From assembly GCF_021134715.1 (NCBI RefSeq), contig NC_060023.1, positions 2,046,001 through 2,110,000 on the forward strand: a stretch of DNA of 64,000 nt, in the 5' to 3' direction. Position 1 is the first letter of the stretch, and each line of letters opens with the position of its first letter. Below the pieces are notes generated by a model. It saw nothing but the letters and a program-made list of their open reading frames with translations, had not been told where the DNA came from and searched no databases. The translations under genes were made by a program, and so were the position numbers. The DNA comes from Daphnia pulex (taxonomy: Eukaryota > Arthropoda > Branchiopoda > Diplostraca > Daphniidae). Shown one piece after another: positions 37,462 through 60,169 of this stretch.

Positions 37462-39898
37462 TTCTGTTTACTGTTCTCAACATTGCAAGCTTGATTTAAA
37501 CTTTAAAAAATTGCATATTTAAATCTTTGAGCTAAAAAACCTTATTATTGTTTCTATCTGTATTATGTAACTTTTATTGGCATGTCACTAAATAAGAATG
37601 TTTTTCTCTTTAATCAGGTAATGCAGAAGAGACGTCGAGAAGATGGACACCAAAACATCGCCGGTATCTCCAAAACGTCAGCGTGGATCATCATTTGTTG
37701 TTGGTAATATGTTTGTGTTTGTGTAAGTTAACCCGTTGTCTGCCACGCCTTTTTTCTCCCCTAGCTTTGCACGGGCTGCGTGCGCTGTTCGGTCTCGTGG
37801 TTTTCATGCCGTGGGATCGGAAAGTCGTACCAGCCCAAAACTTGCCGCAAGGCGCCTGTTAAGGCAATGCACTATAGGGACTTCCCCCTTGTCGATGCGG
37901 TGATGGATTCTCCTGTCACCGTGTCAGCCCGGACTTGTCAGCAATGGCAAGTCCCACCTTGGTCATAGATCCTTCAGACGTGGCGCGTAGAGTCCTAGTA
38001 GAGAGTACAACCTACGGGTTGTATGGCGTGGCAGCCAACGGGTTAACTATTATTGTATGTGTATGTTGTATTATGTATTGTATGTCTTATGTTAAACCGT
38101 GGTGGAATTGTGGGTGGAGGTGGGCAAATAAAACACAATTCAACATTCTAACTGATTTGTTTTTCTATGAATTAAAAAGTATTTTCATTAACTCCAAACA
38201 CAATACTATACTTTTATACCAAGTGTTCTCCAATACAGCGCATTTTTCTCTTCATCCCAGACTATCTATCCTTTTCCCTCTAAGCAGCCTTGTTACCAAT
38301 ATTAAAGAACATTAGTTCATCGAACAGTCCATATCACAGCCAACTGCTTCTGAGAAGACCGGGAACTAGGAACAGCCAAATTGCTCAAAAAAGATTGTAG
38401 ATTCGCCGGTGCTAAATCAGACCATTTGATCACTTACAATTTTACACGACTAGCCAATACAACACCTTCGCCATTTACTGAAACTAACCAATGCAAGTTA
38501 AGTAACCACATAAATAATTTATTTTTTGAAAAATCTGAAGGAGGAACCAATCCAAACCGAATGACTAGTGAATGGATAGACAAGGCAGATAAATCGGAGA
38601 TATTTTGTAACGAATATGAACATGCGAATAAAATCGAAAACTGCGTCACCTCGTGAATTAAAACAAGGCTGCTACGGTTAATAATACTTCTTTGGGGCTT
38701 CAGTGTAGTAGGTTGGAGCAGCATATGTTGTAGTGTAGTATTTCGGCGCCTCAGTTTGGTAGCTCGGAGCCGAGTAATACTTCGGAGCTTCAGTGTAGTA
38801 AGTCGGGGCAGCGTAGGTAGTTGTGTAGTACTCGGGAGCCTTAGTGGTGTAGTACTCGGGAGCCTTAGTGGTGTAGTACGTCGGAGCAGCGTAGGTTGTG
38901 GTGTAGTACTCTGGAGCCTTAGTGGTGTAGTACGTCGGAGCAGCGTAGGTTGTGGTGTAGTACTCTGGAGCCTTAGTGGTGTAGTACGTCGGAGCAGCGT
39001 AGGTTGTGGTGTAGTACTCTGGAGCCTTAGTGGTGTAGTACGTCGGAGCAGCGTAGGTTGTGGTGTAGTACTCGTGAGCCTTAGTGGTGTAGTACTCGGG
39101 AGCCTTAGTGGTGTAGTACTCGGGAGCCTTAGTGGTGTAGTAGGTCGGAGCAGCGTAAGTTGTAGTATAGTACTCAGGGGCCTTGGTAGTGTAGTAGACT
39201 GGTGCCTCGGTGTAGTACGCTGGTGCTGAATAATATTTAGGAGCCTCGGTGTAATAAGTTGGAGCAGCATAGGTAGTTGTGTAATACTCTGCGGCCTTGG
39301 TGGTGTAGTAAACTGGCGCTTCGGTGTAGTAGCTTGGGGCTGAGTAATACTTAGGAGCTTCCGTATAGTAGACTGGGGCAGCGTAAGTTGTGGTGTAGTA
39401 TTCTGGTGCCTTTGTGGTATAATATTGTGACGCTTCGGTGTAGTAGCTCGGAGCGGCGTAAGTTGTGTACACCGGAGCCTCGGTGTAGTAGCTTGGTGCG
39501 GAGTAGTACTTTGGAGCCTCGGTGTAGTAGGTTGGTTCAACATAATAAGAAGGAGCAGCCGATGCGTAGTAGGGTTGGGCTTCGTAATACTTGGCTGCTT
39601 CAGTAGTTGTGTAGCTTGGAGCAGGATAATACTTCGGGGCCTCGGTGTAGTAAGTCGGTGCAGCGTATGTTGTTGTGTAGTACTCTGGAGCCTTAGTGGT
39701 GTAGTAAACTGGAGCCTCAGTGTAGTAGCTTGGAGCAGCATAGGTAGTGGTGTAGTAATCGGCAACCTTGGTAGTGTAGTAAGTAGGAGCAGCATAAGTT
39801 GTAGTGTAGTACTCGGGGGCCTTTGTGGTGTAGTAAACCGGAGCCTCAGTCTGGTAGTAGCTCGGGGCAGAGTAATACTTTGGAGCCTCGGTGTAGTA
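37193..39898 (-). repeat. Right arm of large inverted duplication
   Basis: Reverse complement of 32715-35646. The open frames in the flanking DNA are identical in both arms, including 38381-38656, which is identical to its mirror at 34173-34448. This points to a recent event or ongoing gene conversion. Confidence 0.85.
37732..38042. mobile_element. piggyBac-type MITE, right copy (about 311 bp)
   Basis: Mirror of 34787-35097 with the same TTAA flanks, so the insertion predates the inverted duplication. Confidence 0.75.
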
Positions 39899-40449
39899 GG
39901 TGGGAGTGGCGTATGTTGTGTAGTAAACTGGAGCTTCAGTGTAGTAACTTGGGGCAACATACGTTGTGGTGTAGTAAGAAGCTGTAGTGTAATACTCGGG
40001 AGCCTTGGTGGTGTAGTAAACGGGAGCTTCGGTGTAGTAGGTCGGGGCAGCATACGTTGTGGTGTAGTATTTAGGCGCCTCGTAATACTTGGGAGCTTCA
40101 GTGTAGTAAACTGGGGCAGCGTTGGTTGTAGTATACTCCGGTGCCTTGGTGGTGTAGTACTTGGGAGCCTCGGTGTAGTAAGTGGGGGCAGCATACGTAG
40201 TCGTGTAGTACACGGGGGCCTTGGTAGTAGTTTGGTAAGAATAGCTGCCATAACCAGGAGACATCGGTACAGCATTGATCTGCCCAGCCATCAACGACAG
40301 CAACGCCAGCAACAGCACGATGCTGGAATTAGCTACAAATACAGATAAACATTAAACATTATTTGTCAAATACTTTCATTAAAAACAATTTCACAACAAC
40401 AATTTCATTTCAATTCAGAGTGAACATTTAAATGATTTAACTTACCCAT
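38678..40449 (-). CDS. Secreted Tyr/Thr/Pro-rich repeat protein B
   Basis: Exon 1 is 40446-40449 (ATGG) and exon 2 is 38678-40332, giving 552 residues with a signal peptide MANSSIVLLLALLSLMAG. The N-terminal 140 or so residues use the same YYTEAPKYY/TTTYAAP vocabulary as gene A but in their own order (including ASYYTTTYVAP). After that the DNA is nearly identical to gene A, with fewer 54-bp units and one extra YYTTKAPE. Secreted structural protein by composition; function not known. Confidence 0.85.
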
Positions 40450-40528
40450 ATTTGCAAGATGAAATTCGATCGAGATTCAAGTGAATACAGGAACTAGATA
40501 CTGTTGCTGTGTTGAAGCTGCTCACTCG

Positions 40529-40563
40529 ACTGATTCCAATGTCGTCTGTCCTCACATTTTATA
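40529..40563 (-). promoter_or_regulatory. TATA plus TCAGT initiator of Tyr-rich gene B
   Basis: The minus strand reads TATAAAAT, then TCAGTCGAGTGAGC about 30 bp later. It shares the initiator block with gene A although the surrounding promoter DNA differs. Confidence 0.7.
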
Positions 40564-41277
40564 CCCTTTCCTGTCACCCTGATTTACCTCGTTGCCTACC
40601 CTTTCCCAATCGTTTTACTGGGTTTGCCCTTGAGTTATCGCGCTACTCGATAATGATGCAAAAGGCACAAAAGAACCACACCCATCACTATTTAAATTTC
40701 TTACCACACCTCTATTACGAGGCAAAATGGCGATTTTTTAGCCCCCTACCTCTCTCTCTCTTTCAATTCTTAGCCGTTGGCAGTTAGGATATAAGGAAAT
40801 ATAAGGAAATGGAATAAACATGGATGAATGTAATAAATGGAATGTGAGATCAGAAACGTCAAAGCGCATTTTCTCATCCTCTAATATGTGACCATCCGCG
40901 TACTATTTATGTAGGTATATTCAAAAACTTTAAAATTGTAAAATTGTAAAAGATGATTCATTTATTCGGCCATTTTGCAGCGTTACTCTAATTTCGATTT
41001 CAAACAATGAATTTTTCACACAGATTCTCTTGAACACGCGTCACGCTATTTATCGTCACACTTTCATTTTTGATGCTCTGGAATTTGCTTGTTATCTCTT
41101 TTAGATAATAATAAAAAACAAAACAAATAACTAGTGTGAAATTTTTAAATTTTCGATCTGTTTTTTTTTTTTTTTTTGGTATGAAATGCTGCGACTGCTA
41201 CAAGTATTGAGGTACCGATACTCGGAGAATTCCGGTTTTTACATTCGTTTATTTGACAATACAACCCACAAGCCTAT
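40564..41277. other. Intergenic; upstream flank of gene B and 3' flank of the receptor gene
   Basis: Block 40656-40790 (AAAGAACCAC..., GCAAAATGGCG, AGCCGTTGGCAGTT) recurs in diverged form at about 55590-55740. No gene seen. Confidence 0.5.
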
Positions 41278-43343
41278 TTACAAGTCAATTTTTACCACAC
41301 GAGAACGACACTGACATTTGGCAGAGCAGATTTCAACAAGAAACACTATAAAACCGAGTACTGCCCCTCCAAAAGCACCGAAAAACCCGCGTAGATCGTG
41401 CAAAGTCAATGGAGCTATCCGGCGGTTCCGCTTGTCGTTTTCCACTTTGCGCTCGTCTATATAACACCTCGACGCAAAACTGTGATGGGTGTCATCCAAA
41501 TAATTGGACAAACCTGTTTGCCTCAGCAACAAAAGCCTATATGAATACGATATTAGAGTTATTATTGCATACAAGGTGTGCAGGAATTGTGATTGTATGA
41601 AATTGCGAAAATTGAATTTCTCACTGATTGTTTATTGCCTTGGTAAACTGGCTGTCCTTTTGAAGGAACAAGCTGTTTTGTCTCGATTTCACTTTCTCCG
41701 GCAGAATCGTCGCTCGGCAAAATCCGGTTCTCCTAAAGTCTTTCTCGATTTCGGAATCTGCTAAAAGATCAGACTGAAAAGCCAAGCGCTTTTATGAAAT
41801 TAACTGTAAATAAATAAATTGTGAATTGAGATGAAATTGGAATACCATGATTAAAACCTGGTTTGGCTTGCTTAGTAAAAGTTCCACAAATTCGCTGGAG
41901 GGTGAAACTAGAAGCTCCGGGTTTTCCCTTACGCGCTTATAGATTTCTTGATAAATTGGGTCACTAGATTCCTTCAGACACGTTTATATGATATAATTTA
42001 AGTTTATTATGAACCTCAAAATTTTTAAATTTTATTTAAAAAAAATGAAGATGTGGTTTATTGACTATCATTTTAAAATACCCATTTCCCAACTTCACCT
42101 TAAATTCGGTGTGTGTACTGGACTCGTTAATAATGAGTGGTTGGATATCTTTGTTTGCCACCACATCTCCGATTGAATGGACAATGAAATGTAATTTAGG
42201 AGTAGTTATCATCGAAATGATGGATCCAGTAAAGGCGTAATCAAACACCAACACAGTAAAAAGCCACGATCCTATAATCATGCGAGAAGCCAGCGAACGG
42301 TGTCTCGTCCCTGCAAGATCTCCACCTTGGAATAATAAAAAAACACGCAAAACATATTAGGATTCAGTTATTTTGAATTGAGTGCCGAACTTCAACATGG
42401 TCTATACCTTGTCCAAAAACTATTCCGACGCCATTTGTGAGAATGTCTTGGTATGTTAATATCTTTTGCTCAGGTCCTTTCTTAAGGTACATCACAATCC
42501 AAACAACGTATCCAACGGCAAAGTTAGCTGCCGAATACAGGATCCACATCTGCATGTGATGAGAATAAAATACTTGATTATTACATAAATTATACGACGT
42601 TGAACTCCCTTCGATATTGAAATTAAAATTCTGAAATTAGTTAACAAACCGATGGGGAGTAAACGTTGGAAATTGCAAAGGCATCAATATTTTGCAGTGG
42701 ATACGGGACAACAATTGCAATATTGTCCAAAATGATCGGCACAGTGACATCGAAAACCGAATCTCTTGAATATAGCCGGGGACCGAAAGTAGCAGTCATA
42801 TCCACTTCCTAGTTGCCCAGACAAATAAAACTTAGACCGGTTAATTAACATTGAATACTGTTTCAACAAGTATCACTTCTTATGTATACTTCACGGACGA
42901 GTTGGCCCAAAATTCCAGTCCAAGATCCGTTTCCGTGGATTTCGTCGGGTGAACCCAATTGCAGAACGTCCGTTGTAACGTGAATTTCGTACCTTTTCAA
43001 AATTGGAAGCAAAAATGGATAAATAAAAAAATAAATACGACGTGGAACCTTCGTCCCTTACGTGAAATTCAAGGACTCTGCAAGCATTTCAATCAGTTGA
43101 GATTCAATCATGCCTAATTTGTTTATGGATACATTAGGAAGATTGCCTAAAGGATTCTGGGAGTAAAAAAAAATCCCAATTAAGGAAACGGTAATTTCTA
43201 AACATTCTCAGGATATGTTTCATTTTGAGTTATTAACTTACGTAACAAGTAGCGAGGCGAAGATGACCGTTGATTTTTTGACATTTACAAAATACAATCA
43301 AGAGAAAAACCAAAAATAAGAGCTCCAAAGCAATAAACCTCAT
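41278..43343 (-). CDS. Ionotropic glutamate-like receptor (IR family)
   Basis: Nine exons join in frame to 460 residues: 43242-43343, 43062-43156, 42890-42992, 42650-42808, 42408-42549, 42066-42325, 41858-41971, 41625-41773 and 41278-41536. A signal peptide (MRFIALELLFLVFLLIVF) is followed by the S1 ligand-binding half (GMIESQLIEMLAESLNFTYE, GNGSWTGILGQLV, VDMTATFGPRL). Next come membrane segment M1 (AANFAVGYVVWIVMYL), the pore/M3 region (SRMIIGSWLFTVLVFDYAFTGSIISMIT), S2, and M4 (FGGAVLGFIVFLVEI). The SYTANLAAF-type M3 motif of true glutamate receptors is replaced, and the short extracellular part lacks an ATD, as in IR chemoreceptors. Expected at the dendritic membrane of chemosensory neurons. 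The GT donor at 41624 overlaps an in-frame TGA, so the splice is needed to reach M4. Confidence 0.85.
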
Positions 43344-43914
43344 CTTGTCTAGTTCAGCTGAGCGATTACCGGCGATTCAATAAATTACAGGTATCAAGTT
43401 CAAATACCTGAATCCAAGAATGCTTTTTAACGGTAGAATGCCGAAGAGATTGCCTAAGAAGCCTGTGAGTATTTTTAACTGATGGCAAGTGCGTCTGCAT
43501 TTTACCCTCGACGACAGAAACGAAATAAAATCAATAACAATCACAGTAGGGTCCCAGCCAGTCGCCTCCTGACAGTCCCAAATTGGCTATAACTGTACCA
43601 TGACGTTTCTCTTAAAAGTAGACGAGATTTCTTTTAATAGTTTGCTATAGTATACCTTCGCTGATGGAATGCGGGAGACATCGATAGCTAGACAATTTTT
43701 CGCTTCGTCAGTTACCTCTAAAGGTTTTGGACTCCTGAGTCCTGACCGGTAATACTAATTTAAAAGAAAAAAAAACTACCGTATTTTGTTGTTGTCGGTT
43801 ATTGTTGCAGTAATTTGGGGGGAAAATTTGGCCGCTTTCCGAGGTTTTTAATTTTTTTTTCTATTTGTTTTCTCCAATATGTGTTAAAAATAAAAACCAT
43901 AGATATGATTTTCT

Positions 43915-44372
43915 GTCAAAGCCTTAGCATTTACCAGATTGGAAAAGGGAAAGCGCTGGAAAACTGAGATTTATGGTCATCTATGATTGGGGAAACTAGA
44001 AGCTCCGGGTTTTTTCCTGTGCGCTTAAAGATTTCTTGATGAACTGGGTCACTAGATTCCTTTAAAGGTTTAAAATAAATGGTCTGAGCCACGATCCTAC
44101 AATCATGTGAGAATCCCGGAGAATCCAGTGAATGGTGCTTCGCCGATGCGACATTTCCACCTAAAGCACAAACATTGGAATTCAGTTACTTTTAGTTAAA
44201 CATGGTCTACCTGCTGTGAGTATTTTTAAAAAAACTGCGTTTGTTTTGTTGTTGCTGAAATCATGTTGGGAGAAAATGGGATGTGATTTTCTAGCAAATA
44301 TGCCTTGGTGATAGATAACCAGAATGGAAAAGGGTAAGCGCTAGAAAACCGGAATAGGAGCCTACGGTCATC
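43915..44372. repeat. Direct repeat pair flanking an IR relic
   Basis: About 43915-43985 and 44282-44372 share GATTTTCT..., GGAAAAGGG-AAGCGCT and GGTCAT. Together they bracket the IR-like relic, suggesting a small local duplication. Confidence 0.5.
43989..44165 (-). pseudogene. Relic of a second IR gene (two exon fragments)
   Basis: About 43989-44065 repeats, in diverged form, exon 7 of the intact receptor. About 44092-44160 repeats the start of its exon 6 (SRMIIGSW region). No continuous frame or membrane segments survive. Confidence 0.6.
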
Positions 44373-45149
44373 TTCGGCTGCGTACAAAGTTGGGACGCGG
44401 TTGGAACTAGAAAAGCTTACATCTGGTTAATAACGGTGAAAGAACTCGCAGTCGCTCGCAGTTTCAGTTGGTCTTTGCCATCGTCACGACGATTGCAGCT
44501 GTGCTATCATAACTTTTGGGAATTTAAGTTTCAAAGGAGAGCCTCGTTTAAACGTACTCTGAGCAGAACTTTGTTGATCTGGTGAGTGTAATTATTTTGT
44601 TGTTGTTTTCGTGAATTGGTGCTATTGTGGTGGTGGCTGAATATAATGTTCTGCTGGTCTTTGCGTCAACAGCCTTGAAGCTTTGCGCCTGTTTGCGCAA
44701 CCGCAGTGTGGCTGGGCTCTACATGGCCTTCACTCCTGTATGGGGTAAGTAGTGGTGAAACCGAAGTGGCTGCAGCGCCTTGGTATACAATAAAGAGGAG
44801 TATGTGACCAAAGTGAACAAATAGCAATGTCGACCCTCCATTCGACCATTCCCATGATAGCACACACGGTAACACGGACTTAGCGCACGAGGGAGTGTTT
44901 GATTCGTAGTTTACTTCCTATTTGGGCACTAGACGCGTCTAAAAAAATTCCCTTATTAGCCCTAAGGACTTCCACTGTATTAGCATAATACTTTTTCTTG
45001 TATGGTACGAACTCGTGCACCAAGGCCATTCCTGACCTTACTATGTAATAGTATTTTTTTTTCTACAGATGCTTCGTCGGACTTCCGTGAGAAAATATAA
45101 AATTTAAGATATCGGTGGCGATTCCCCAACTGTTTGTCTACGGAAAAAA

Positions 45150-48100
45150 ATGGATGATGATGCAGAGGATTCAACGGAAGGATCTCCAGTGTCCTGGAAT
45201 TTTAATTCAAGTTACTCCGACAAAGATGTTTTAGAAGAGATCAAATATTACGTACAGTCAGACGATAATGAATCCAACAAATTTTATGACGATGTCATCC
45301 AACACATTGAATCCAAGATTGGGCGTCAACTCGTCTGCTTGGAAAAAACCTGGTCCGAGAGACAATACGTCAATGTCGTCATGAAAATGTGGTTGCGCAA
45401 GAGTTGTCGAAAGGCCTTTTACTACCTGGATAATAAAACGACTGATATCAGCCTCGAGATGTCATCCCTCCTGACTGAGTTGGACTCCATCCATTCCTTC
45501 GAAGATATTCGCAGTAAATTGGCAGACGAATCACGACTTCGATACTGGTGTGATGGCGGATGTCAATATCTTAAACTGATTCTCGATCAAAAGGACCTAC
45601 TCGAAACCGCTCATCGCTTCGTCGTGCCTGTCATAAATTATTTAAAGCAATTCAAATCATCGTGCACCGACAAGGTGTTTTCCCGGTGCCTGAACGATAT
45701 TGCCAAAGATAAAGTTCGAGGCGACAAGTTCGTGAAATTTATTTCCTCGTTGGATGAGTTTCTGGCACACCTGAGGGAAGACAAGAAGAAGAAAGAATTA
45801 CAAGACCTTTTAGAAGAGGAGAATACAGTTGGCATATCGGGACGTGATTTGGTCAAGAAACTAATCGGCAATGTGTCCAAAATTAAATTAACATTACCCG
45901 AATGGGTTATTCGCTTCATATCCATTAATACACAATTGCCTGATGAAGAATGGACCCCAAAACTGCAATCACTGACTTTAGAGACGTGCAAAAAGTTCTT
46001 GCTACCCAGAAACGAAATCAAAATCAAAGACGACGATGGAAGGCAAATTATTTTCATCAAAGGCATCGTCATCTTTGTGAGCAAAATAATCAAACAAATG
46101 TTGGAACTGAAACGAGCCAATCCGAATGTGCAAGAAGTCCAAATTGTTGGGCTGACATCGGTACACGTCGACTGGCACTTGGAATCGAAAGACTGGCACG
46201 GAATAAACGTGGGAGTCGTCTCCGATCAAATCTTTGTCAACGGAGAAGTCTGTTGGGACGTATCAGGGCTACATGGATATATTAAACCTGGAACCAGCAC
46301 GATGTGTTCTATGAACGATAAAGGTAGTCCCAACTTCAAACTATTAACATTATTTAAAACATAATTTAAAATTTGATCAAAAATTTCTACATCAATCAAT
46401 CATTCAGGCGCAAATTATCCTAAGCCGGGAGAGAGCGGTGGTAATGTGTACGTCGTTTGTAACGAAATGACAGCGATCAACAATGGACGCTGGACAATTA
46501 CATCTGATGGGGGAGACGGAGACAACGCCAGCAAGGATGCAAATAGGAAATGGACAAAAGACAAATTTGAAATGGTTTTTCCTTCCATGTCGCGATTTGA
46601 TTCAGCAGGTGAAAATGCAGTGAGCAAAGTCCTGGCGAAACTAGAAGAAATATTACCGCCGGAAAATAGGGATCACGGCGTCGATATCGGAAAGGGACAC
46701 GACGATGCTTTTTTCGTCGAAGGAACCGCAAAAGATGGAAATAGGATCACAGTATCCTATTTTTACAAAATTAACAAGACAACCCGCAACATAAAGAATA
46801 AGTGTACAGTCGTACTTCGCCAAGGTAATAAACGTTGGGAGTATTATGACAAATTGTTTGCTTATTGTGCATAAATGTGTATCAAAGCCATTATTTGATT
46901 TGACTTAGCTACTGAACTTTTTCTCTTATTTGTACCAATTATCAGGAGCGGTTGGACAAGGTGGATTTGGTGGGACCATTGTCATCGAGAACCTGAGCGG
47001 AGACATGGGCAAGAAGTCCAGTGTTCTGTTCACCGGAAAGGACAAACGACAAATATCATATGTACGTACCAATTTTTATGAGGCATTCGGTTCAGATGGC
47101 AATATGAGCAAATTGGTTGGAGATGTCGGTTTTATTCACAACGAAAACTCGTCGCTGTGCAAACAAAACAACAAGGGAGAATTCTTCGGATTTGACAGTG
47201 ATGTCAGACTACATTTAAAATTTCAAACTAAGAAACCGCGCGGTAAAGGTTCCAACTTGTATGGCAGATTACATCATCCGATAAATGGGTTGAATTATGC
47301 GTCAATTGTGTGCAGTAGTAATCGGGAGTCTTATGAAGACCACAGCTTGACGTTCGACCAAAAGCGAATGGTGGAAGCCGTTAAGAAAAAGGCCATCACT
47401 CTGCAAAGTCTGGGGCAACATTTAGCCCAGATAGACGAACGAAAGCAAATGACTCAATCTCTCCAGAAAATGTTGGCCAATCCGTTGGATCAACACTGCA
47501 ACATCGGTGTTTTAATGAACAACATTTCAAACAAAGAAGTTCAACTGAATCATCAGTTGACATCCCTACGTCAATATCATCAGGAGAAAATCGGACGAGG
47601 GCAATACATCAAGCCATCATCGTTAAAGAAAGAAGATGTCGGTCGTGCAGCATGTTCTTACCGGATAAATGCAGATCGCCGTCCTGTTTGCTTTGCTGAC
47701 TGCAAGAAACCACCGGCCAACAAGGTTTACTGTCTCGAAGCTTTACCAACGGTCGGTGGGGTTGACAGCGCCCTCCACTGTATCTTTGGCCGACCGAATT
47801 CGGATGGTTTGTATTATTGCAATAACACCAACAAATACCGCCATCGTCTTGCCAAGTTCATTCTAGACAAAGAAAACAGAAGCAAAATGTCCGCGCCTAT
47901 CGAAAGTTTTGTGCTTAGAGTGAAGAACGGTAGCAAAGACTTTCCTGTGGCAAGTATCATGAAGGACTCGTACACGAAACACAAAAAAGTTGAGAAAAAA
48001 TCGAATTGGCAAATACCCACGGACCGATTCGAGAAATTGTTGGAGGAATATGCTAAATTCGTTGAATGCCCGTCGAGTTTTCTGTTGATTACCGAACTGA

Positions 48101-51100
48101 AGCTATTGGCCCTAATTCACCAACTAACCATTCATGTTTATGAAAGTCAATCATATTCATTCCAATTTAAAAGTACATTTAATCTAAACGGCGGCGGATG
48201 TAATATGGATCCATTAAATGAAAACTTTCTTCTGTACGAACCTGATGGTGAATGTCAGCGTCTCAAGGCTAATACGAACTTGCAACCCTTTTGCAGTCAA
48301 ATTGAAAACGATTTATTCAAATTTCAGCCTTTTCAGACCATTTCATTTGCAAATTTGATGGAATGGTCTAAAGAGAACTGCTGTAACGACAAAATAATGT
48401 CGTCACTCAAGATGTTCAACCCCGAAGACGGTGAAACACCTGATGAATTATCTCGACTTCTTCTAGAGCGCTTAAAGGAGATTGTAATGAAGAATAGACC
48501 AATAAATGAACTGGAATCAGAAATTCGCATTTTGTCTGAACGAGTGGAGGAATACAACAGTCGAAATCTGAGCCCAATCTTTTACCTGCACATTGTTGCC
48601 AAATCTGAGCCTTACGAATGGAAATATGATTTTCTTTTGCTCGAAATAGAAGAACAGCTTTCAAGTCCGCTCAAGCCAGCCGAACGAAAAGTTTGGAGAG
48701 ACAACTTGTTTTACAGTTTGGACGACAGGATTTTGTCATTATTGCGAGAACGTCTTGTGACATCAAGGACCGGTATTAGTACCTCTTTACTAGAACCAGA
48801 AAAGTTTGAGCAAATGTTGAAGATGTTGGAATCCAAAACCGAAGAGTCTGAAAAACTAGTTGAACATCTTCGTCAATTGCCCCTAAACAAATGGCATGAT
48901 GAGCTGAAAAGTAAAGTCGGAATGAAGAATGATAACAGCTCCTCGAGAAAAACGAGTAGGAATGAGGAGAACGATAAAGAAGAACCAGCCCCTAATTTAT
49001 CGCAAGAAAGAATCCTATCGGATATAATGTCCTTAATAAATATAGATAACGATTGGCCATCCACATTTTTGAGAGACATTGAAAATCGTGTAAGTGCATC
49101 ATCTTTGATGGCGGAGCGCGACGATAAGAGCATTCAAAAACTCATCCAAAAGTGGCAAACTAAAGGTTTAAAATTAAATGACGATGAATCGCTGATTCAG
49201 TTCCTTTATGTCTACGATTACGCCGTAACGAAAGTTTATGCCAGTTTGACCAAGAATGGAAGTAACAGAAACCAACCATTCCGGCTGCGCGATACCCAAA
49301 AAGTGACGATAATTACTCTATTGATGTCAACCAGCACGTTAGCTCAAGTATCTACTGGAGAAGGCAAGTCGCTAATCGTGGCCGGTGTGGCTATTGCACA
49401 TGCTCTTTCGGGGAAAAAGATTGACGTCATTATCAGCAACGATGTCCTAGCCCTTCGCGATTCTAATCGGTCGGTGGCTGACGGTGGCCTTCGAGACATT
49501 TACGAATATTTCAAAGTGAAAGTAGCCAACAATTGCAGCCATACGGAAGACGATCGCGTCAAAGCCTACGATTCTGCCGTCGTTTACGGGGAATTGGCTA
49601 ACTTTCAGCGTGATTACTTGTTAGACTCCTTCTATGGCCGCAACATCCGCGGAGATCGCACGTTCGACTTGGTCATTATTGACGAGGTTGATTGTATGTT
49701 GCTTGACCGAGGCAATAACACGCTTTACTTGTCGCACGATATCCCTGGCATGGAAATGCTCGAATCTTTGTACGTATTCATTTGGGAGAAAATATGCAAT
49801 CATAATTTGGGACTCGAAAAAATCAAATGCGACGTCCTGTATGATCTCTACGGCACAATCACTAAGAAACATTTAGAGGCCGTTCACGCTCCATTGAAAA
49901 CCAATCCATCAAAACTGAACCAACTGTGGGACTATCTAATCGAGGCGAAAATCATTGATCCACAAGGACGTCTTTTGGCTGATAAACTTGAACGCATTGC
50001 ACGAATAAATTATATTGAGAATCTCGATCTGAATTTAAAATTAATTTTCTATTTCCGCAATGTGTTCGAGCGCGAACGCCACATCCGGATTCCCAGTCAT
50101 TTGTTGTCCTTTGTCGACAGACATCTTGACACTTGGCTGGAAAACGCCTTGTTTGCAATGTATCTGAAACCTGAAGTGGATTACGTCGTCGACCAAGACC
50201 GGACAGATACGAGTCCAGATCTAAATCCTCAAGTGATTGTAATCGATCCGCACACGGGGACAGATCAAACTTCGTCCCAATGGGATGGATCTCTTCATCA
50301 ATTTCTTCAACTCAAGGAAGGATGCAAATTAACGCTGCAAAGTCTTAAGGCTGTTTTTATATCCAATACGACCTACATCAAACGTTACAAAATGCTACTA
50401 GGTACATCGGGAACGCTGGGATTCGAAGCAGAACAGGAATTTCTGAAGAAAAAATACGATTGCAAATGCATTTTCATTCCGACTGCCTTTCCGAAATGTT
50501 TTACCATCAAACCAGCCAAAGTGTTAAAGACAAAGCAAAGTTGGCTTGAAGCAATCAAAGAAGAAGTAAGACTTACAGTTTCCCCAACGAAAGAAAAGCG
50601 TTCGGCTGTCATTTTCTGTCGATCGATCAGAGATGTTAACATTGTTCATCAATATTTGACAGCTTCCTTTCCAAAAGTTAAAGAGACCAGACAGATCCAT
50701 CGCTACATCCGCGATTTCGAAGAATTCGCATTCGAAAGCAAAACATTGGACGTGGGTCATATAATTGTCGCTACCAATTTAGCCGGTCGTGGAACTGATA
50801 TCAAGATCAGTAGAGAATTGAATGAAAATGGAGGTTTACACGTTTGTTTGGCGTACCTGCCGGAAAACGAACGGATTGAGGAACAAGCGATGGGTCGTGC
50901 CGGTCGAAACGGAGCACCCGGAAGCGGAATAATTATCTTATGTGAGCCCCAATTTTCCAAAAGGGAGTTGTCGGTTGAATCTCATGAGGAGTGGAGTACT
51001 GAGAGATTCATCAACATGAAAGAAGAACGGAATACACGAGAACGCCAAAGAATTTCTAGACTAGAAGAAGATTACTGCGGCATTGATTTACAAGAAAGAT

Positions 51101-54006
51101 TCTTCAACGAATTTTCAAATCATCACACACAATTGAAGATTGACCTCAAACATTTGAAATGGGACGATCCGATAATTAAGGCAGTTTGCGATAGCATCTT
51201 GGACAAATGGGCACTGTGGCTCGATGAAATGGAAGTTGACGCGGCATTTTTAAGTTTCGAATGCATCAGCTATTTTTTTAGAAAAGAACTCATCGAGGTG
51301 CTCACACTACCCGAGAACCCTAGTGACATCGAATGGATGACACCGGCGCGTTCAGTTGTCGTGGCCAAACATCTAATAACAAATCGAGAGAACAAACCCA
51401 GTTTTTTAACGGCCGCTTGCGTAATTTTGGATAGACTGATCGAATCGAACGACAGTTTTTTCTACCCATCTGCTCACTACTATCGCTCTCTCATTTACAC
51501 AACAGACAATTTCCAAAAGAATAAAAAACCGTTTATCCGAACATTGCGAACCTGTGAATCTAATCTCATCAAGCACATAGAAATGCAATCGTCATGCCTT
51601 GACAAAATAACGCAAACAAAAAATATGAGATCTGACGAGAAGCTTCCGTTTTGCGTTGTCGATTCCTACAAACAGCAAAAGCAGAAAGTTATTCAAATAT
51701 TTCAATACTTTATTTGCTCCACAAGATCGTTGTTGGGAAGTCACAGTTGTTCAGCTTCTGATGTTCAAAATGCATTGATTGCAAAAAACACGAAAAACGA
51801 AAAAGCTAACGAAAAAAAGCTAATGAAAAAAGCTAACGAATTATTTGAATCGCTGGTGAAATCTAAGTGCATCATCAATCAAGTCAACGATGAAAAGACG
51901 GTCCCAAATCGAGATGCCGTTATTCAGCGAGTAGCCTATGACAATGGAGTTAGTCAATCGTCACTCGTTGAAAGCTTAGAAAACATAAGGGGCAAAAATG
52001 AATCATTCAACATTGAAAGGGGTGTGTCATTTTGCCGAACTATTAGCAAAGATAAGATTTTCGGAAAGAAAATAAGTAGCGATGGTCTCGGCGAGAGAGA
52101 AATTGAGAAGAAACTGAAAAGTATTCAGATGATTCGCTATTCCAGAAAAAAATTTTGGGAGTACATGTTGGATAAAGGAGTCCTCCAAGAGTGTGTGATC
52201 GTTTCCGAGTCTGAGGCTGCAAAAATGAATCGCTTAGACCCGGAATTCACTGATGGCATTTTCGTACAGTACAGTTATTCGGGCAGTTTCAAAGATTTAA
52301 AGAAGAATGAAAAAGTCATTTTCCGTAAGGAATATAAGAAAGCTAATACATGTCGTAATAACAAGGAAATTGATTACGATTATGCCCTTCTTGATCTCGA
52401 AAGGCTCAAGAGTGTCGACCTAACATCGTTTGGCCAGTTGAAAAGTCACGATTTGATGTACACGAATATCGATACCGACGAATGGCCACAGATATGGAAC
52501 GATTTGTTGAAACAAAATATTATTGACGAAAAGGGATATCTTGTCCCCAATAAGGAAACAAAACTTTTTAGATATCCCCAATGCCCGGCGTATGAAGTTC
52601 CTGTGAGAAAATTGATTGAAACAACGTTCGCTGTAGAAATAGTCAGGCGCCAGTGGCTGAATGCTGAAAAAGATCCAAATTCTCTCAAGGCAATTGAAAT
52701 ACTACCCCTGAAACCTTATCGAAAAATTCTGAACGATCTGAAGGCGTCACACGTCATTTGTGGAGCTCAAGTGACGGAGGATACGACACTTTTAGAGAAA
52801 ACTGTCAACGATATATGTTCATCAGAGGACACGCGTCAATGTGTTTTAGAATTCTTGAAAAGCCGCCAAGCAATCTACGTTACCACGAAAATGACACCGG
52901 ATACTTTTTGTCTCTATTCTCTTGAAAGCCACATTCGAACAATTAAAGAAATGTCAGGCGTCTTGTCTGAACTCCACGCTTTTACTCTGGTAGGATTTGA
53001 CCATGTAATTAACATGAAGGAACGAGCAGCGACATGGAAGTTTTTCGGTTCTGCCTCACTCGTCATTTTTGGTGGAGTTGCTCAGATTGTGGCTCGAGTT
53101 GTAGGTCACAATTTCGGGCTATTAACACAAGAATACGGTGACGCAGTATCACAACAGGGAATGGCTGACATCAATTACGGCATTCAAGCTATAAAATATC
53201 GACAAGAAATCACTTGGGACGATTACAAAAGGCATAAAATGGATCTGGTAAAATCTGATCTAGTTATGATTAGAGATGCAATGTTGAATTCCCTGGAGGC
53301 TGACGACGAATTTGAGTTTGAATCAGAATTGATGACGTCGGCGCCCTACTCAAGAGGAAACGAGAGAACAATTCGTGATCAATCCATATGCCAGGATAGG
53401 CCAGTAACCGAAGACAGCAGCGCAATCAATCACTTTCAATCAGTCGAGCACAAAGTCGATTTGTTTTTCCAACTTCGAGTCACGTTTCAAAGCACTTTAC
53501 TCGAGAAAACAAACAGCGTCATCAGAAAGAACTCGGTCGAAATGAAAGAGACACTGGGCAATCTCTATAGGTCACACGGACTAGAGAAAGCGCAAAAAAC
53601 CGTCAAAACAAAAATGAAAGAACTTGTCGACAACTCGTTTGACCATAGCCTAGGAGTGGCTGTAAAGGCATGGAATAAGCTGTTAGAGAAACAGTTCTTC
53701 CAACTAGACGATGCCGGGACTTTTAAATGGGAAAACAAAGAAGAACTTCGTACAAATTTGGTCCTAAAAATGGGAATATCAGTTATAAAACGCACACAAA
53801 TGGAGTGCATAAATAAATTTCACGCAGAACTGAGAAAATCCTGCTCGTCCGAATCATCAACAACCAATGACTTTGACGATGAGGAACGACACCGCTTTCT
53901 AACAAATGGAATAGCCAACATTAAATCTGAACTAGCTAGAAATGTAGAGAAGCTGACGCAGAAAATGATGGAGTATTTCATCCATAATCACAATGCATTC
54001 ACTTAG
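45150..54006 (+). CDS. Giant SecA-motor protein (about 2,883 residues)
   Basis: Three exons join in frame: 45150-46323, 46408-46824 and 46946-54006; the last is 7,061 nt without interruption. Residues 1-390 are mostly helical and end in a conserved-looking block (IKGIVIFVSK, VGLTSVHVDWHLES). A short Gly-rich stretch follows. Around 795-940 is an OTU-like fold with apparently lost catalytic residues. Residues about 1312-1862 are a complete SecA motor: Walker A STGEGKS (1333), SNDVLALRD, GELANFQRDYLLD, DEVDCMLLD (1443), VIDPHTG then WDGSLHQ, LLGTSGTLG, TNLAGRGTDI (about 1807) and QAMGRAGRNG (1844). The C-terminal ~1,000 residues contain a hydrophobic patch near 2562-2590. Bacterial SecA drives preproteins through SecYEG. 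The role here is unknown: no organelle presequence and no C-terminal zinc site are seen. A 5' UTR intron (donor about 44581, acceptor about 45068) is likely. Confidence 0.9.
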
Positions 54007-56028
54007 ATGCAAGATTTGACGCTTATTATTTAATTCTGAGCTTGCATTTAAAACTAATACAAATTCACAAACTCGATGGATGAGACCTTAACTCACGAAA
54101 ACGGAATCACAGTGGACAATTTCGACATGAGAATTGTTCGAGAATGCGGGTGGTGTACGTGATTGGCGCGTCTGCAACAGAAAAATTACATTGGACCACC
54201 GAAAAATTATCTTAAGAGTTAGTTGCCTTAATACTTATAGCAGGATATACTGGTGTCGGTGATAATTTTTGTACGATAAATAAAAAAAAGTTTTGCTTTG
54301 TAGCATTGTTCAATTAAACAGCAATGAAAATAAAAGTCATTTCAGTTAACCGCTTACATAACTTGTTTTGAACATGTTCCTTTTGTATGAATGGGAAATC
54401 CAGTCATTTACCAAATAACTATTAAAATGGATAAATATGGCAAGACAAAAAAGGCAAATGAAACCTTGCTGAGTCAACAAAAACCTCAAGAGAAACAGTC
54501 TTCCAGTCAACCACCTAGCTCAGGAATAATCGTACTCCAGGATAACGATTTATAATCAACACCATGGAATAGGAAAAAAGGAAGAATAGATAAACTTGAC
54601 CTACCTTTAATCCTGGGAAATACAGCCAGACATCCACATGTGAGCTCCATCCGCTTTCAGTTGAATCCACCAGCAGGCGGGGTAGGAAAAAGGGGGTCCT
54701 CATGAATACACTCATACTCACATGGGTGTACGGGGACATTTCAAGTAAGGAGAAGAAGAGATCCGTAGCTCAACGTGTAGTTTTTCCAATCAAACAGGAT
54801 GCTGTTTATCTGAATGAAAATTGGGTTACGAAAACAAATTAGCAGAAACAAAAGTAAGGAAAAGTTGAAAATGAGACACTGAATAAGCCATAATTATTAA
54901 TAAAAAGGAGGATTTAGGGTATCTTTATAATACACTGTGACATTTGAACAAGTCAAAGTCACACATCATTAAAATATTTAGCAGATTACAGAAATAAAAG
55001 TAATACAAATCAGTATCCTAGCGATAATACTGAGATTGTTGATAACAGGTCACTGCCAGAGCTAGCAAGACTTGCATATAGTGTTGTCTTGATAGCTGGC
55101 TCAACTGCTCGTTCAGGTCTTAAATCTTCACAAAGAAGAAGGTTAATTATAGTGCAAACATTGGGCCAACAAGGGGCTTACCAGCTATATCAAGCTAGTT
55201 AAGTAGTCAGACACTATTAACATTTCCCAGATCTGGAACAGGTTTAACTTTTACTCTATAACTCAGTTTTAACTTCTTTTCTTAGTTATATTTATTACCT
55301 GCCAAACAGCATGGAGAGCCGGGACACCACAGTTAATCCGACGACCACATTACTGTATAAGTTTATTGCGCTATTTTCCTGCAGTCGCGTACGTCCCGAA
55401 ATAGGAAATCGTTCGTGTTTTTTTTCTTTGTCTCAAACGGTTTCTTTTTCGACACTTGTAATAAACAAAACTAAAGCAGACGACACTATGTGAATGTAAG
55501 TTCTAATTTCTAGGGTACTTCTTTTTCTTTCACACTGATTTAGCCATTTAGGTGAAAATCACGCTGAATATGCCCCATTCAAAGGACACGAAAGAACCCC
55601 TCAGATAAAACGATAAAAGGCGATAATTATTTGCTTACCCCACCTCTCTACTTGAAACAAAATGGCGTTTTAGGTTTTAGTTGCTACCCTTCCTATCCAA
55701 TTCCCGCCTATTCCTATAGCCGTAGGCAGTTGGAAGTGTAAGATGGAATAAATGGAAATGAGTTAAAGTAAAATTTTGGAAAATGTACAAAATAGTAACC
55801 CTTATTAGCATAGAAACTCGTGTCCGAGATGAGAAAGGATGAACAATCGCTTGTAATAATATCCAACTCTTTTTATTCCCGATTCCCGAATATGTGAATT
55901 AAATGTCGCTACGTTTTAACTTAACAGTATGCGTTAGTTAACATACGGTGTGAGAGTGTGAGACAAATGTAAGGCCCATTTTTTTCAAACTTTTCCAAAC
56001 CGCTTTGCTCCTCTTGTAATTCTACTGC
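54007..56028. other. Intergenic; 3' UTR of SecA-like gene and a repeat-gene promoter relic
   Basis: AATAAA-like words near 54280 may end the SecA-like transcript. About 55590-55740 resembles the upstream flank of Tyr-rich gene B. Other open frames (for example 54515-54739 minus) lack support. Confidence 0.45.
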
Positions 56029-57391
56029 TCATACTTTTAAATAGGTAGTTGTTCCGATAAACCCATATTTAATATTTCCGTATGTGATACTCGGATTTGG
56101 GTTGCTGTAGATTGGGCAAGGGCCGTTGGGTTCTTTATCTAACCAGCCCCATACGTCGGGTTTGTCAGGATAGCCAGCGATTCCCATTGTGAGGACCATT
56201 CCTTTCTTTAATCCGTAGCTCATACTGGCCGATATTCCTCCCATGTTCCACTGATTGTAGTATTTGCAGTAAGCGTCCGATATAGAATTGAAATTCCCCT
56301 CAACCTGCATTTCAACAAAATGGATTACATTGGTTTGTTTTTTTTCAATCTCTAATCAATAAAGGCATACTGTTGGATTCGGTATCGTCCTGCCGTTCTG
56401 TTTGTAGAAACGTTGGATTTCTTTGAGGTCCCCTGTGTCAGTTCCGTCGACCGAGACGAAACGAGTCACGATGGTGAAAGGTTTGGTAGTGTCAACGCAA
56501 TAAGACGGCCCGCGTCCGTAGAATTTTTTCTTTCCAAGTGCGTACGGCAGATAAGCACATCCGGAAGGTTCGCAGCCGTTGTTGGTGGCATTGCAGGTGT
56601 GAGTGACCATCATTGTAGTTAAACTGTTGGCTTCAATAATGTCTAATTCGTGGCAAGATGGTTTGTTGGACTCGGGTAGCTGGGCGTCGCACCCGCCCGT
56701 TCCGTAAATGGGTCCTGTGTAACCGTGACTGGCCATCCCACCATCTTCTTCCATTCCGACAAAGAAAAAGGATGCGTCGAATCCGCATCCGACGGTAGAT
56801 AAGTCGACGTCAAAGCTTATCTCTCGGTTCAGCAGATAAACCATTTGATACCTGAGAATTTTATATTAACGTAACGATCCTGAACGTAGCATTGATAGGG
56901 TTGATATAATTACTTGTTAGAATTCGGGCCAGTGGTCAAGTAAATCCTGGGTCCTGTAGCTGGTGTCACGTACCTGAGCGTCAGATGAGTGCGTGAACTT
57001 GAAACAGTCGCACCGAATAAGGTATCATACTCAGCGGCTGTAAAAACCTGAATAGCATTTGACGGTATACTTAAACAACGTAAGTAATATTTAGAATTAA
57101 CGTAAAGACAAAATCATGATTCAATACCTTGTCGCACCGTTTTGGGTCGTAGCAGAGATTGTAAAATACACCTCTCCAGTTGTTATCGACAACCAAACCA
57201 GTAGCTAACGGTTCACAGTTATTCAAGCTGCTACACACGTAAACGATAAAGTCCAGGGCTCCTGTAGTACGGCCTGTCTGATTCATTTGAACATATCCTT
57301 CGTTCGTGACAGGTGAGGAGGTGACGAGCACGATTGTCCTAAACACTAAAATAACAAGACAAATTAGCCGTTTGTTGAAATAATTTGACAT
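56029..57391 (-). CDS. Glycoside hydrolase family 7 cellulase (cellobiohydrolase-like)
   Basis: Exons 57128-57391, 56914-57047, 56371-56851 and 56029-56304 join in frame to 384 residues. A signal peptide precedes the catalytic domain. GH7 landmarks: LTLRYVTP, PRIYLTTG, EISFDVDLSTVGCGFDASFFFVGM, GGCDAQLP, and the catalytic ExDxxE as HELDIIEANS (nucleophile Glu, Asp, acid/base Glu all present). These are followed by CAYLPYALGKKKFYGRGPSYCVDTTKPFTIVTRF, and near the C-terminus GMVLTMGIAGYP, WGWLDKEPNGPC and YGNIKYGFIG. No cellulose-binding module or linker is seen. It should release cellobiose from cellulose in the gut. GH7 is mainly fungal or protist; animal copies are known to me from crustaceans. 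An alternative upstream ATG lies at 57421. Confidence 0.9.
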
Positions 57392-58023
57392 CGTTGAACT
57401 ATTGATTTGGCCCCCTATCATTCAATTCAGCAGTTGACTAGTAACTGATGCGAACACGTAGTGTAATTCGTTGTTTCACCACACACACATCCTGTGGATA
57501 ACATCTGAATAAGCCATATTTTCAAGCTGGCACACTTGTGTCACATTAGCTACCATATGTTTCCTTTCGTTTGTGCTTGATGCGCATTGGGAACTAGTTT
57601 ATTTTTCGACACTAGAAAAAGGAACGATTCCATATTTTCAGAAAAACATTTGGAAACAATTAGTTCGCGGACTTAGTTTCTTATGCTATTTTACTGGAGA
57701 GACATTGAAAGTTAAAATTCTTTTTAATTTTGCGTTTGTTTTGTCAAATTAATTACTTTTGTTTTGTATTGAATCAACAGGATGTCAAAGAAAGGCTTCA
57801 TGATCAAATTATTGATCTTTTACCCGCACCACTGTAAGCTCAATTACTATTTAATAGAATTAGTTATTTTAAGACTAATATTCAAAAATTATGTACAGTA
57901 TCCATATATAATCTAAAGGCGTAATCTGATGCAATCCAATAAGCAGCAAACCTAATTTTATCTTCTCAGTTTTTTGTTCGGTCCATTTGAAAGAATTTTT
58001 TCCGCGAACGCCGGTGGGTTTCT
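57392..58023. other. Intergenic between GH7 and the first Spaetzle-like gene
   Basis: A CATCAGTTAC initiator-like word (minus, about 57447) may be the GH7 start region. Nothing else recognised. Confidence 0.4.
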
Positions 58024-58733
58024 TCAAGGTTTAAAAGCCCCAACTGCACATCCGCACGAGCCAGGCAACTTGAATTTTTCGATGGTGAAAGGAAATGCGT
58101 AATCGCTGGGATTGAAGACCAAAAAGCGGTGGAAAATGTTCTTCTGGATGCATTTGGAATCGTAGCAGGACGGGACCAGTGGGCAGACAGTGCCAACAAC
58201 CACGTCACATTCCTCAACTCGAGCCGTCTGGGTGTATTTGATGCCGTAGGACTCTACTCCATTGACGATGGTCCGCCACTTGCCTTCGACGTTAATGGCC
58301 CGTAGAGGACGGACGTACTCGGTGGAGCTCGGACAAAGGTAAATTTCGTCACTCAGTTTATCCAATCCGTCGACGGAATTGTCTGTGTTGGCCAGTTTAT
58401 CTTTGTAGAAAGCCAAAACGCTTTGGTAGTGCTGGTCCAGAGCATCTCTGACCTCTTGAAGAGGATATTCCGAGTCTTCCAGGCACCAAGACTTTGTAGT
58501 GTTTTTGGCGCAGTGCGGAATCTCGGCTTGATCGTATTTTGGCGGAGCACCGTACAAAGGTTTATTGTAGCTTGGATCGGGCGAGCTAAAAACTCCAACC
58601 AGCAACGAAGTAAAAATCTGTGTCCAAAAACATTGGGAAGTAATAGAAGAATAATTAATTTATGATTTATGTACACAAATTTATGTTTGAATTTGTTTTG
58701 TGAATTAGAACTTACTAATGAATTGATAGACAT
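58024..58733 (-). CDS. Spaetzle-like cysteine-knot protein 1
   Basis: Exon 1 (58716-58733) has 18 nt (MSINSL). Exon 2 (58024-58617) completes the signal peptide (IFTSLLVGVFSS) and the rest of 203 residues. The mature part has a Pro/Tyr-rich start, a helical region with PHCAKN...SWCLEDSEYP, and a C-terminal Spaetzle/NGF-like knot: LCPSSTEYVRPLRAINVEGKWRTIVNG, YTQTARVEECDVVVGTVC, SCYDSKCIQKNIFHR and LPGSCGC. Spaetzle proteins are secreted Toll ligands cleaved by serine proteases. No obvious processing site is evident before the knot. Divergently arranged with its paralogue at 59313. Confidence 0.85.
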
Positions 58734-58820
58734 TTTGTGACAAACAGCTGGAAAAGTTTTGGTTGTTCAGGCTCCAGTATGGTTAGAAAACAACTAATTC
58801 AAAATAAAGACCAAGCGCGC

Positions 58821-58827
58821 TTTATAT
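58821..58827 (-). promoter_or_regulatory. TATA box of Spaetzle-like gene 1
   Basis: The minus strand reads ATATAAAG about 90 bp upstream of the start codon. Confidence 0.45.
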
Positions 58828-59204
58828 TGTGCCCTGCCACTACCGCAAAAAAGTTCCAGTCGCTTTTACTTCCAGTTGACTGATTTAAATTTCACTAATT
58901 GGGAGATTAAGGTAAGGCGAGTCATCTGAAGTAGTTCGAAATTCTATGGTAAGTGGCTATGAGCGCTTCACATTTTGAGGTTGTGGTTAAGATCAACAGG
59001 AAACAAGTTGGACTGTGATGAATTAGTTTCGATTATTTGACCAATTCAAAGTTGGACAAACTCATTAATGAAAGTGAGTATTTCAAATGGGAACAAGACA
59101 GGTTCATTAGTGAAACTCAAATTCGAAATTTTGGTATTTTGTAAACCACAAACTCGAAAATACCACAATAGAGATGTGGCGTTGATCACCGATAGATGCA
59201 AATG

Positions 59205-59242
59205 TATAAAACCCTCGCCTGTTCTGAGTAAACTGCATCAGT
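59205..59242 (+). promoter_or_regulatory. TATA plus TCAGT initiator of Spaetzle-like gene 2
   Basis: TATAAA at 59205 and TCAGT at 59238, 33 bp apart; the start codon follows at 59313. Confidence 0.65.
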
Positions 59243-59312
59243 TGAAAGCTGACAGTCAAAAACACAGTTTGTATAGTTTTTAAGCCAATCACATATTATA
59301 AATTTATTAAAA

Positions 59313-60169
59313 ATGGAAATTTCATTGGTAATATTTAAAACGTTTTAATGAAAATTCCTTCTTTAAGATTAAAATCTGTTGTAGTTTTACTAATAATAAG
59401 TGTGAATCACATTCAAATTCTAGCTCTGTTTGGCTGCCGTATTGGTTGGAGCTGTTGCTGTGCCGGAACCGGATGCTGACCCCCAAACATATTCAAAACC
59501 TGCCTACCCAGCAGTTCCGTCCGATAACTGCAACCCTCGCAAGGCACCAAAGTGTTCGGAAAACAGCACTGAAACTTTCTGTCTCACAGACGCAGAATAC
59601 CCCGAAAAAGAAATCAGGGTAAGCCCAATTTTCCATACAAATTTGATACAAATATCTCCAGACTATTAATTAAAATCATAACCTGCTTTCAGAGTGCCAT
59701 CAAGTACGACCCGTTGGTGCTGCAGAGGTACTATGATATTGCCAAACAGTCGGCCGACAACTTGGTCGATGGACTGACATCTTTATCGGAGAAACATTAC
59801 GACTACTCCAACTACACGGGCAAGACTTTCGAGATGTCCAACTGGATCGGCGAGGAAGGATACATTTGCCCCAGCACTGTCCACTACGCCCGCCCTCTGC
59901 GCGCTCTGAACGTTGACGGTAAATGGCGTGCCATCATTCAAGATATCGCCTGGCCGGGATACACGCAGACCCAACGTGTCGAGACTTGCTTGTTCCCCGG
60001 CTCCCCTTGCCGCACTTTGGCTCCTTGTTATGGCAGCAAATGCTTGCAAAAGTACGTCTACCAGCGCATGTTGTCCTTCGATCCTTGCGATGCCAAAAAG
60101 GGAATTTTCATTGACCTTTACAAACTGCCATCGGCTTGCTCTTGCCACATTCCCGGTAAACTTCATTGA
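59313..60169 (+). CDS. Spaetzle-like cysteine-knot protein 2
   Basis: Exons 59313-59327 (MEISL), 59424-59618 and 59693-60169 join to 228 residues. The signal peptide reads MEISLLCLAAVLVGAVAV. The protein parallels gene 1: KCSENSTETFCLTDAEYPEKEIR, then a helical region, then the knot ICPSTVHYARPLRALNVDGKWRAIIQ, YTQTQRVETC, CRTLAPCYGSKCLQKYVYQRML and LPSACSCHIPG. It has one more intron than gene 1, at the EIR/SAIK junction. The tiny first coding exon is shared with gene 1 and with the C1q genes. Likely an extracellular Toll-type ligand or trunk-like factor, by family only. Confidence 0.87.

Follow-up and report, generated by a model that had tools for sequence, protein, structure and literature searches.

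A SecA-type motor within a giant Daphnia pulex protein and its relatives in small-genome bacteria

A SecA-type motor in a three-exon gene

The DNA analysed was a stretch of 64,000 nucleotides from Daphnia pulex (the window; positions 2,046,001 to 2,110,000 of contig NC_060023.1 in NCBI RefSeq assembly GCF_021134715.1), which is C7:2046001-2110000 in the genome searched (133.2 Mb, 13 contigs). At 45150-54006 on the + strand it carries a three-exon gene for a product of 2,883 amino acids (aa), in which the only stop is the terminal one. The protein belongs, as an animal representative, to the giant 'eukaryotic-type secA' family, which is already published. An earlier note on this DNA had described a complete bacterial-type SecA in a single open reading frame (ORF) of a giant animal protein; the start at 45150 and the stop at 54006 were right, while the single frame proved to be three exons. 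The gene and its motor are laid out as follows.

45150-46323, + strand: exon 1, coding for aa 1-391 and the first base of a split codon; conserved N-terminal module
46324-46407, + strand: intron 1, 84 bp, GT-AG, phase 1
46408-46824, + strand: exon 2, containing a PGESGGNVY stretch, with a counterpart frame in paralogue C7b
46825-46945, + strand: intron 2, 121 bp, GT-AG, phase 1
46946-54006, + strand: exon 3 including the stop codon (frame P0001, aa 532-2883)
49114-50439, + strand: SecA_DEAD (PF07517), first nucleotide-binding lobe, into which the preprotein-binding region is inserted
49351-49371, + strand: Walker A motif STGEGKS; GxGK[ST] in 11 of 11 animal copies examined
49681-49692, + strand: Walker B motif DEVD, by motif reading
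50122-50307, + strand: diverged C-terminal half of SecA_PP_bind (PF01043, below cut-off), with VIDPHTG and WDGSLHQ
50521-50817, + strand: SecA P-loop (PF21090), second lobe, with GRGTDI
50884-50913, + strand: motif VI, QAMGRAGRNG, by motif reading

Exon 3 was matched in Pfam by SecA_DEAD at E 9.7e-30 (104.3 bits, cut-off 24.6), by P-loop_SecA at E 8.1e-9 (35.8 bits, cut-off 27) and by Helicase_C at E 3.5e-6 (27.7 bits, cut-off 23.5); exons 1 and 2 gave no Pfam match. SecA_PP_bind stayed below its cut-off of 23.5 on exon 3 (E 0.011, 16.8 bits) and passed it in one paralogue, C8 (23.8 bits). PDB SecA chains matched the protein at about 1e-30, and the likeness to SecA is therefore beyond chance. 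The motifs named in the earlier note were present in order (STGEGKS at aa 1333, DEVD at 1443, VIDPHTG at 1629, WDGSLHQ at 1643, TNLAGRGTDI at 1807 and QAMGRAGRNG at 1844), and the profile search that it had proposed, strong for SecA_DEAD and sub-threshold for SecA_PP_bind, upholds a SecA-type ATPase motor within a giant animal protein. To our knowledge, a SecA motor is not expected in animals.

Eleven animal copies were analysed, namely the window gene and ten other loci fetched from the same genome; six of them, the window gene included, form group A and five form group B (described below). Walker A, motif III (G.[ST]GTL) and motif VI were each found in 11 of 11 copies, GRGT[DN] in ten (absent from C10b) and DE[VLIA]D in nine, the misses in C4 and C8 lying apparently at the exon edge of the extracted pieces. 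All five tested motor motifs were present in every group A copy. The sequence shows a SecA-type two-lobe ATPase carrying all the motifs and supports the motor chemistry.

The same superfamily 2 fold might instead belong to a nucleic-acid helicase that remodels RNA or DNA and not protein. Besides Helicase_C, a DEAD match was obtained (E 0.00064, below cut-off), and a giant relative from Bandiella (see below) is annotated as a DEAD/DEAH box helicase. SecA_DEAD is nevertheless by far the strongest match, the SecA-type insertion with LHQ is retained in all six group A copies, and copy C8 passes the SecA_PP_bind cut-off; a helicase was judged improbable.

Both nucleotide-binding lobes are in place, with all the landmarks that the earlier note had named, but completeness did not hold. 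SecA_SW (PF07516), the scaffold/wing half with the two-helix finger that pushes the chain, had no match in P0001 at E 1 and none genome-wide, with 10 of 14 control genomes positive. The scaffold/wing is not recognisable and may have diverged beyond the reach of the profile. Eight NCBIfam SecA models matched, all far below their cut-offs, the nearest and best with 177 bits against a cut-off of 862. SecB had no match in the genome (5 of 14 control genomes positive), and the SecY profile matched one genomic place in three pieces, presumably Sec61 alpha. With SecA_SW and SecB missing and a single SecY place, 'SecA motor' is therefore right and 'complete SecA' wrong. Canonical SecA and SecA2 have the two nucleotide-binding lobes and identical motifs in common with the Daphnia protein, whereas the latter has 2,883 aa, is without a recognisable scaffold/wing and falls in a separate clade (100/100; see below). 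Motif III takes the form G.[ST]GTL in all 11 animal copies and in 30 of 34 bacterial giants, as against 0 of 7 canonical rows.

A classical Sec preprotein translocase, exporting through a SecY/Sec61 channel, would be consistent with a motor of SecA type and with a SecY-family gene in the genome. The genome without SecA_SW and SecB matches, and a best NCBIfam score so far under its cut-off, speak against such a translocase, which we consider very unlikely. No strongly hydrophobic N-terminus was seen in the hydropathy profile; no presequence predictor was applied.

Bacterial contamination of the assembly, suggested by the bacterial type of the domain and named in the earlier note as what would undo its reading, was rejected. 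The gene has two introns, and the place of intron 1 and the exon-3-side boundary of intron 2 recur at equivalent places in paralogues C7b, C3 and C7c, as judged by ORF boundaries. It lies at 2.09 Mb within a chromosome-scale contig of 12.3 Mb, and a Pfam scan of ten other ORFs of the window gave matches over cut-off to Spaetzle (two ORFs), GH7 (one) and DZF_N (one). Matches to SecA_DEAD are, moreover, spread over nine contigs. The chance of contamination is negligible, and the gene is a genuine animal gene of the reported family.

Paralogues and bacterial relatives

The 12 SecA_DEAD matches in the genome lie on C2, C3, C4, C5, C7 (three), C8, C10 (two), C11 and C12; the C5 match has three internal TGA and was left out of the animal copies. 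Group A comprises the window gene, C10a, C11, C7b, C7c and C3, which are colinear with the window protein within these limits: C10a is without aa about 209-611, and C11 matches from aa 789 onward only. In group B (C10b, C2, C12, C4 and C8) the BLAST match lies in or beside the motor only. Paralogue C7b (C7:1981301-1990704) is found ~100 kb from the window gene in the opposite orientation, and its motor is 62% identical. At C10:735501-739000 (L025) a motor-less derivative was seen, in which a 102-aa N-terminal frame, resembling that of C10a, leads on to a C-terminal frame of 633 aa and the SecA motor that would separate the two is missing. A partial copy at C11:6507018-6508712 matches the region 46948-49098; its ORFs measure 694 and 603 aa, a TAG interrupts one of the matches, and SecA_DEAD was not matched there.

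By a Nei-Gojobori count, dN/dS of the window gene was 0.18 against C7b, 0.23 against C10a and 0.20 against C7c, where dS (2.0-2.5) is close to saturation; six other comparisons gave 0.36-0.47. All nine values (0.18-0.47) were below 1, with no significance test behind them. A selfish or decaying family, acquired horizontally and without host function, would be in keeping with copies scattered over nine contigs, with a distribution reported as patchy and with the partial or degraded places at C5 (three TGA), C10:736 kb (no motor), C9, C11:6507 kb and C12:6059 kb. Against this, the long frames stay open despite high divergence, dN/dS is low throughout (for the three pairs with the window gene at a dS of ~2 or more, close to saturation; no significance test), and no inverted repeats of at least 40 bp were found in 40000-60000. 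This reading appears rather unlikely.

The best whole-genome match overall (576 bits) was to a genome of 1.36 Mb (G070). It is most likely Wolbachia, because its locus gave one phage-collection match, 54 bp at 96% to phage WO, and carries a gene of the published Wolbachia type. This gene (L074) is broken inside the motor, and its two pieces match window aa 19-511, 1152-1814, 1803-2498 and 2524-2630, in order. It differs from the Daphnia gene in this interruption and in that window aa 512-1151 are uncovered by any BLAST match to it; the two motors are 44% identical over 528 columns. Two frames upstream of the G070 gene have weak motor similarity, an arrangement that recalls the published short-long pairs. 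The likeness of the Daphnia gene to wBol1_1092 and the phage WO secA genes lies in a giant SecA gene and in the colinear Wolbachia-like copy (PMC3639933; PMC5062602; L3551_05650 in PMC9680635), whereas the Daphnia gene has introns.

The pair wBol1_1091/1092 was described with full-length insect matches and a near-full-length Daphnia pulex match, large Daphnia and Harpegnathos clades, and two Amoebophilus genes within the eukaryotic clade; most annotated introns of eukaryotic secA genes were deemed spurious there, and transfer from a eukaryote to Wolbachia was proposed (Duplouy 2013, PMC3639933). SecA is listed among the eukaryotic-like domains of phage WO (Bordenstein 2016, PMC5062602), WOHa2 carries a eukaryotic-like secA module (PMC9203015), and SecA-like domains are named among Amoebophilus effectors (PMC3482391). 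A wAlbB-Uju gene pair of 4,491 and 11,664 bp was reported with 'no closely related bacterial homologues' (PMC9680635). The words SecA, Daphnia and translocase do not occur in the main text of a horizontal gene transfer compendium (PMC13342648). In the open-access literature neither a functional study of the animal proteins nor a report of the shared C-terminal domain described below was found; subscription papers and preprints lay outside the search.

The motor was matched by 127 plasmid records. Among the 20 listed, the best scores were those of Candidatus Megaera (263 bits), Candidatus Bandiella (228 bits) and Legionella geestiana (184 bits), and 12 of the other 17 are annotated SecA. The Bandiella and L. 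geestiana genes encode 2,966 and 2,947 aa. On the 57-kb Megaera plasmid (L035 609-21077), the matched gene of 1,589 aa is adjacent to a second giant SecA-like gene of 5,225 aa, a pairing that resembles the Wolbachia short-long pair. Plasmids gave no match at E 0.01 to 46948-49113 or to the C-terminal part, 51238-54003. A scan of genome contigs gave six loci, all on contigs of metagenome-assembled genomes (MAGs): five are from Alphaproteobacteria, two of these sharing a MAG, and the sixth is from Cytophagales.

In whole genomes up to three candidates were scored per genome, and the giant type was marked by E <= 1e-35 with profile A1, with which canonical-length SecA ORFs (868-903 aa, in three of the first four genomes) reach only 1.4e-23. 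Carriers at this threshold were 30 of 343 genomes in the order of G001, to which G070 belongs, and 9 of 390 in the order of G002, with genome sizes of 0.8-2.7 Mb; in the order of G001 the non-carriers listed are equally small, assemblies are possibly incomplete, and size does not separate carriers there. The matched bacterial frames are mostly longer than 1,000 aa, with a few of 495-980 aa, some of these on short contigs. Like the Daphnia protein, the bacterial giants (Megaera, Bandiella, L. geestiana, and the Cytophagales and Alphaproteobacteria MAGs) have the motor, about 28-33% identical, no PF07516 match in any of six scanned at full length and, in eight of nine compared, the Gly-rich domain at the C-terminus. 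By contrast, the N-terminal module of the animal proteins is not detected in them, and HEAT repeats, LysM or OTU were matched in single members.

Two further assignments were tried and dropped. Exon 3 matched 0 families in PADLOC, and the defence-system label was not retained; for a viral reservoir, 264 pattern matches with A1 and one with the Wolbachia-like piece were obtained in viral_contigs, and no relative was confirmed among them. In the phage collection, 23 records match the motor; of the 20 listed, three are annotated SecA and 17 have no annotation.

A tree was built from 53 rows of motor sequence, with 11 from the animal copies, 34 bacterial, 7 canonical and one from the Wolbachia-like gene, of which the first piece was taken. 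L038, L039, L040, L060, L069, L070, L072 and L073 were left out as repeat fetches or near-copies, and L048, L052, L061 and L068 as partial; L031 (short match) was never included, and L036 is the same place as L074. Whole-genome matches with no fetched locus, C5 and all other eukaryotes are likewise outside the tree. Canonical SecA was split from all other rows with support of 100/100, so that the comparison with bacterial SecA suggested in the earlier note gave a separate clade. Support was 100/100 for group A, 100/100 for group B, 100/98 for group A with the Wolbachia-like gene and 100/100 for all three. On these alignments, the animal and Wolbachia-like motors fall together with proteins of small-genome bacteria, most of them giants, and canonical SecA stands apart; this placement is an addition to the published account. 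Both the motor and its kinship are read directly from sequence. Nesting of the animal copies inside the bacterial giants is not proven, because the 34 bacterial rows as one clade were not rejected (approximately unbiased, AU, p 0.308). The relatives in intracellular bacteria that the earlier note had mentioned were borne out by the plasmid matches, the whole-genome matches and this tree.

Regions outside the motor

The following features of the gene lie outside the motor.

47722-48303, + strand: putative OTU-like region, aa about 790-983, with no cysteine at the expected catalytic place
51025-52674, + strand: post-motor region, common to group A, the Wolbachia-like copy and, in part, five of five group B copies (profiles)
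52933-53238, + strand (core 53047-53103): C-terminal Gly-rich hydrophobic domain, matched by a profile of eight bacterial giants at E 2.3e-5
54279-54284, + strand: AATAAA polyadenylation-like signal, read from the sequence

The N-terminal module of exon 1 recurs in C7b, C3, C7c and the Wolbachia-like copy, partly in C10a and, by profiles, in part in four of the five group B copies.

New here, too, is the Gly-rich C-terminal domain that the animal proteins and the bacterial giants have in common. A hydropathy peak was found at the post-motor Gly-rich segment in all 11 animal copies and in eight of the nine bacterial giants compared. The profile, built from eight of the giants, finds the domain in seven of the 11 animal copies (domain E between 1.9e-16 and 1.4e-4, with 2.3e-5 for the window protein) and, at E 3.6e-16, in the Wolbachia-like piece; among the 40 rows listed, the lowest sequence E was 0.68 for a shuffled decoy and 0.32 for an unrelated real ORF. 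The domain had no Pfam match over cut-off in the members scanned, and a PDB profile search with it returned seven chains (best E 0.061), none convincing. A genome search with the C4 domain gave seven places, namely six of the 11 known SecA-giant loci and C2:7046435.

Several points weigh against this domain as a shared membrane segment. The decoys do not preserve hydrophobic runs, and the margin of the profile is somewhat flattered; four of the 11 animal copies (C10a, C7c, C3 and C8) were missed by it, though alignable. When the window post-motor part was shuffled, 487 of 1000 shuffles reached 1.6; the hydropathy peak is within chance, and single-protein hydropathy was dropped as standalone evidence for a membrane segment. 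The C-terminal peak is exceeded in hydrophobicity by a stretch at aa 300 (1.83), and the Wolbachia-like peak is only 1.52. We infer membrane insertion from homology and analogy.

In the putative OTU-like region the group A copies share a conserved stretch (LPTxGGxDSxLHxIFG, ELxxLAxI, IxVY and HFILY). Of the five group A copies other than the window gene, three gave sub-threshold OTU matches (E 0.053, 0.08 and 0.1; 13.5-14.5 bits, cut-off 23.3), and the window protein had no Pfam OTU match at E 1. In a by-eye alignment to the OTU motif, the place of the catalytic Cys is occupied by Ser or Asn in six of six group A copies. The group A profile of this region matches the Wolbachia-like piece at E 1.3e-7. 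Among the bacterial giants, L027 has an OTU match at E 2.5e-9 and a DGNC motif beyond the matched region, and may carry tandem OTU units. The OTU reading is weakened by a profile comparison of the group A region with the L027 OTU, which gave 20 columns at a probability of 5%, and by scores that stay below threshold; a dead OTU is possible and is put forward as a hypothesis, not as a finding.

Possible action and surroundings of the gene

The reading that we prefer, at a probability of roughly 0.4, is that of a self-contained polypeptide motor, perhaps acting at a membrane, which would be a domesticated relative of symbiont effector-like giants. The two lobes would hydrolyse ATP, gripping and ratcheting unfolded polypeptide as SecA does, and would do so by a route other than the bacterial SecY channel, with the C-terminal hydrophobic domain of the protein itself as membrane anchor or insert. 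The N-terminal half, with its OTU-like and probably dead fold, would recognise the substrate, perhaps one marked by ubiquitin. A symbiont version would act upon host proteins or membranes; the arthropod copies would have been domesticated and duplicated, and their use would lie most plausibly in dealing with intracellular microbes. Substrate, translocation of protein, insertion into a membrane and a role in immunity, if any, are inferred here.

A wider account, which is tentative and rather unlikely, would have SecA remade outside the Sec pathway into a self-contained translocation machine, with motor and membrane domain in one giant polypeptide. In effector-like form it would have spread through at least two phyla of intracellular bacteria, and arthropods would have domesticated it, with exchange involving the phage of Wolbachia. 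If true, animals would have a protein translocase family that is driven by ATP and descends from bacteria. The 12 SecA_DEAD matches of this one crustacean genome, taken with the colinear Wolbachia-like copy and the bacterial giants that have both motor and C-terminal domain, raise the question whether a protein-moving machine of symbionts was turned into a host tool. The published arthropod-to-Wolbachia account gains a bacterial background that is largely missing from those papers, which give two Amoebophilus genes (PMC3639933) or no close bacterial homologue (PMC9680635).

No tRNA was found in the window by ARAGORN. Long overlapping ORFs lie at 32523-34395 and 38437-40275, where GC skew is strong; one of them is weakly cornifin-like (below cut-off), and the rest had no Pfam match at 0.01. 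Nearer to the giant gene, a GH7 fragment is found at 56359-56844, and the two Spaetzle (Toll ligand) ORFs lie at 58027-58605 and 59714-60166, on opposite strands.

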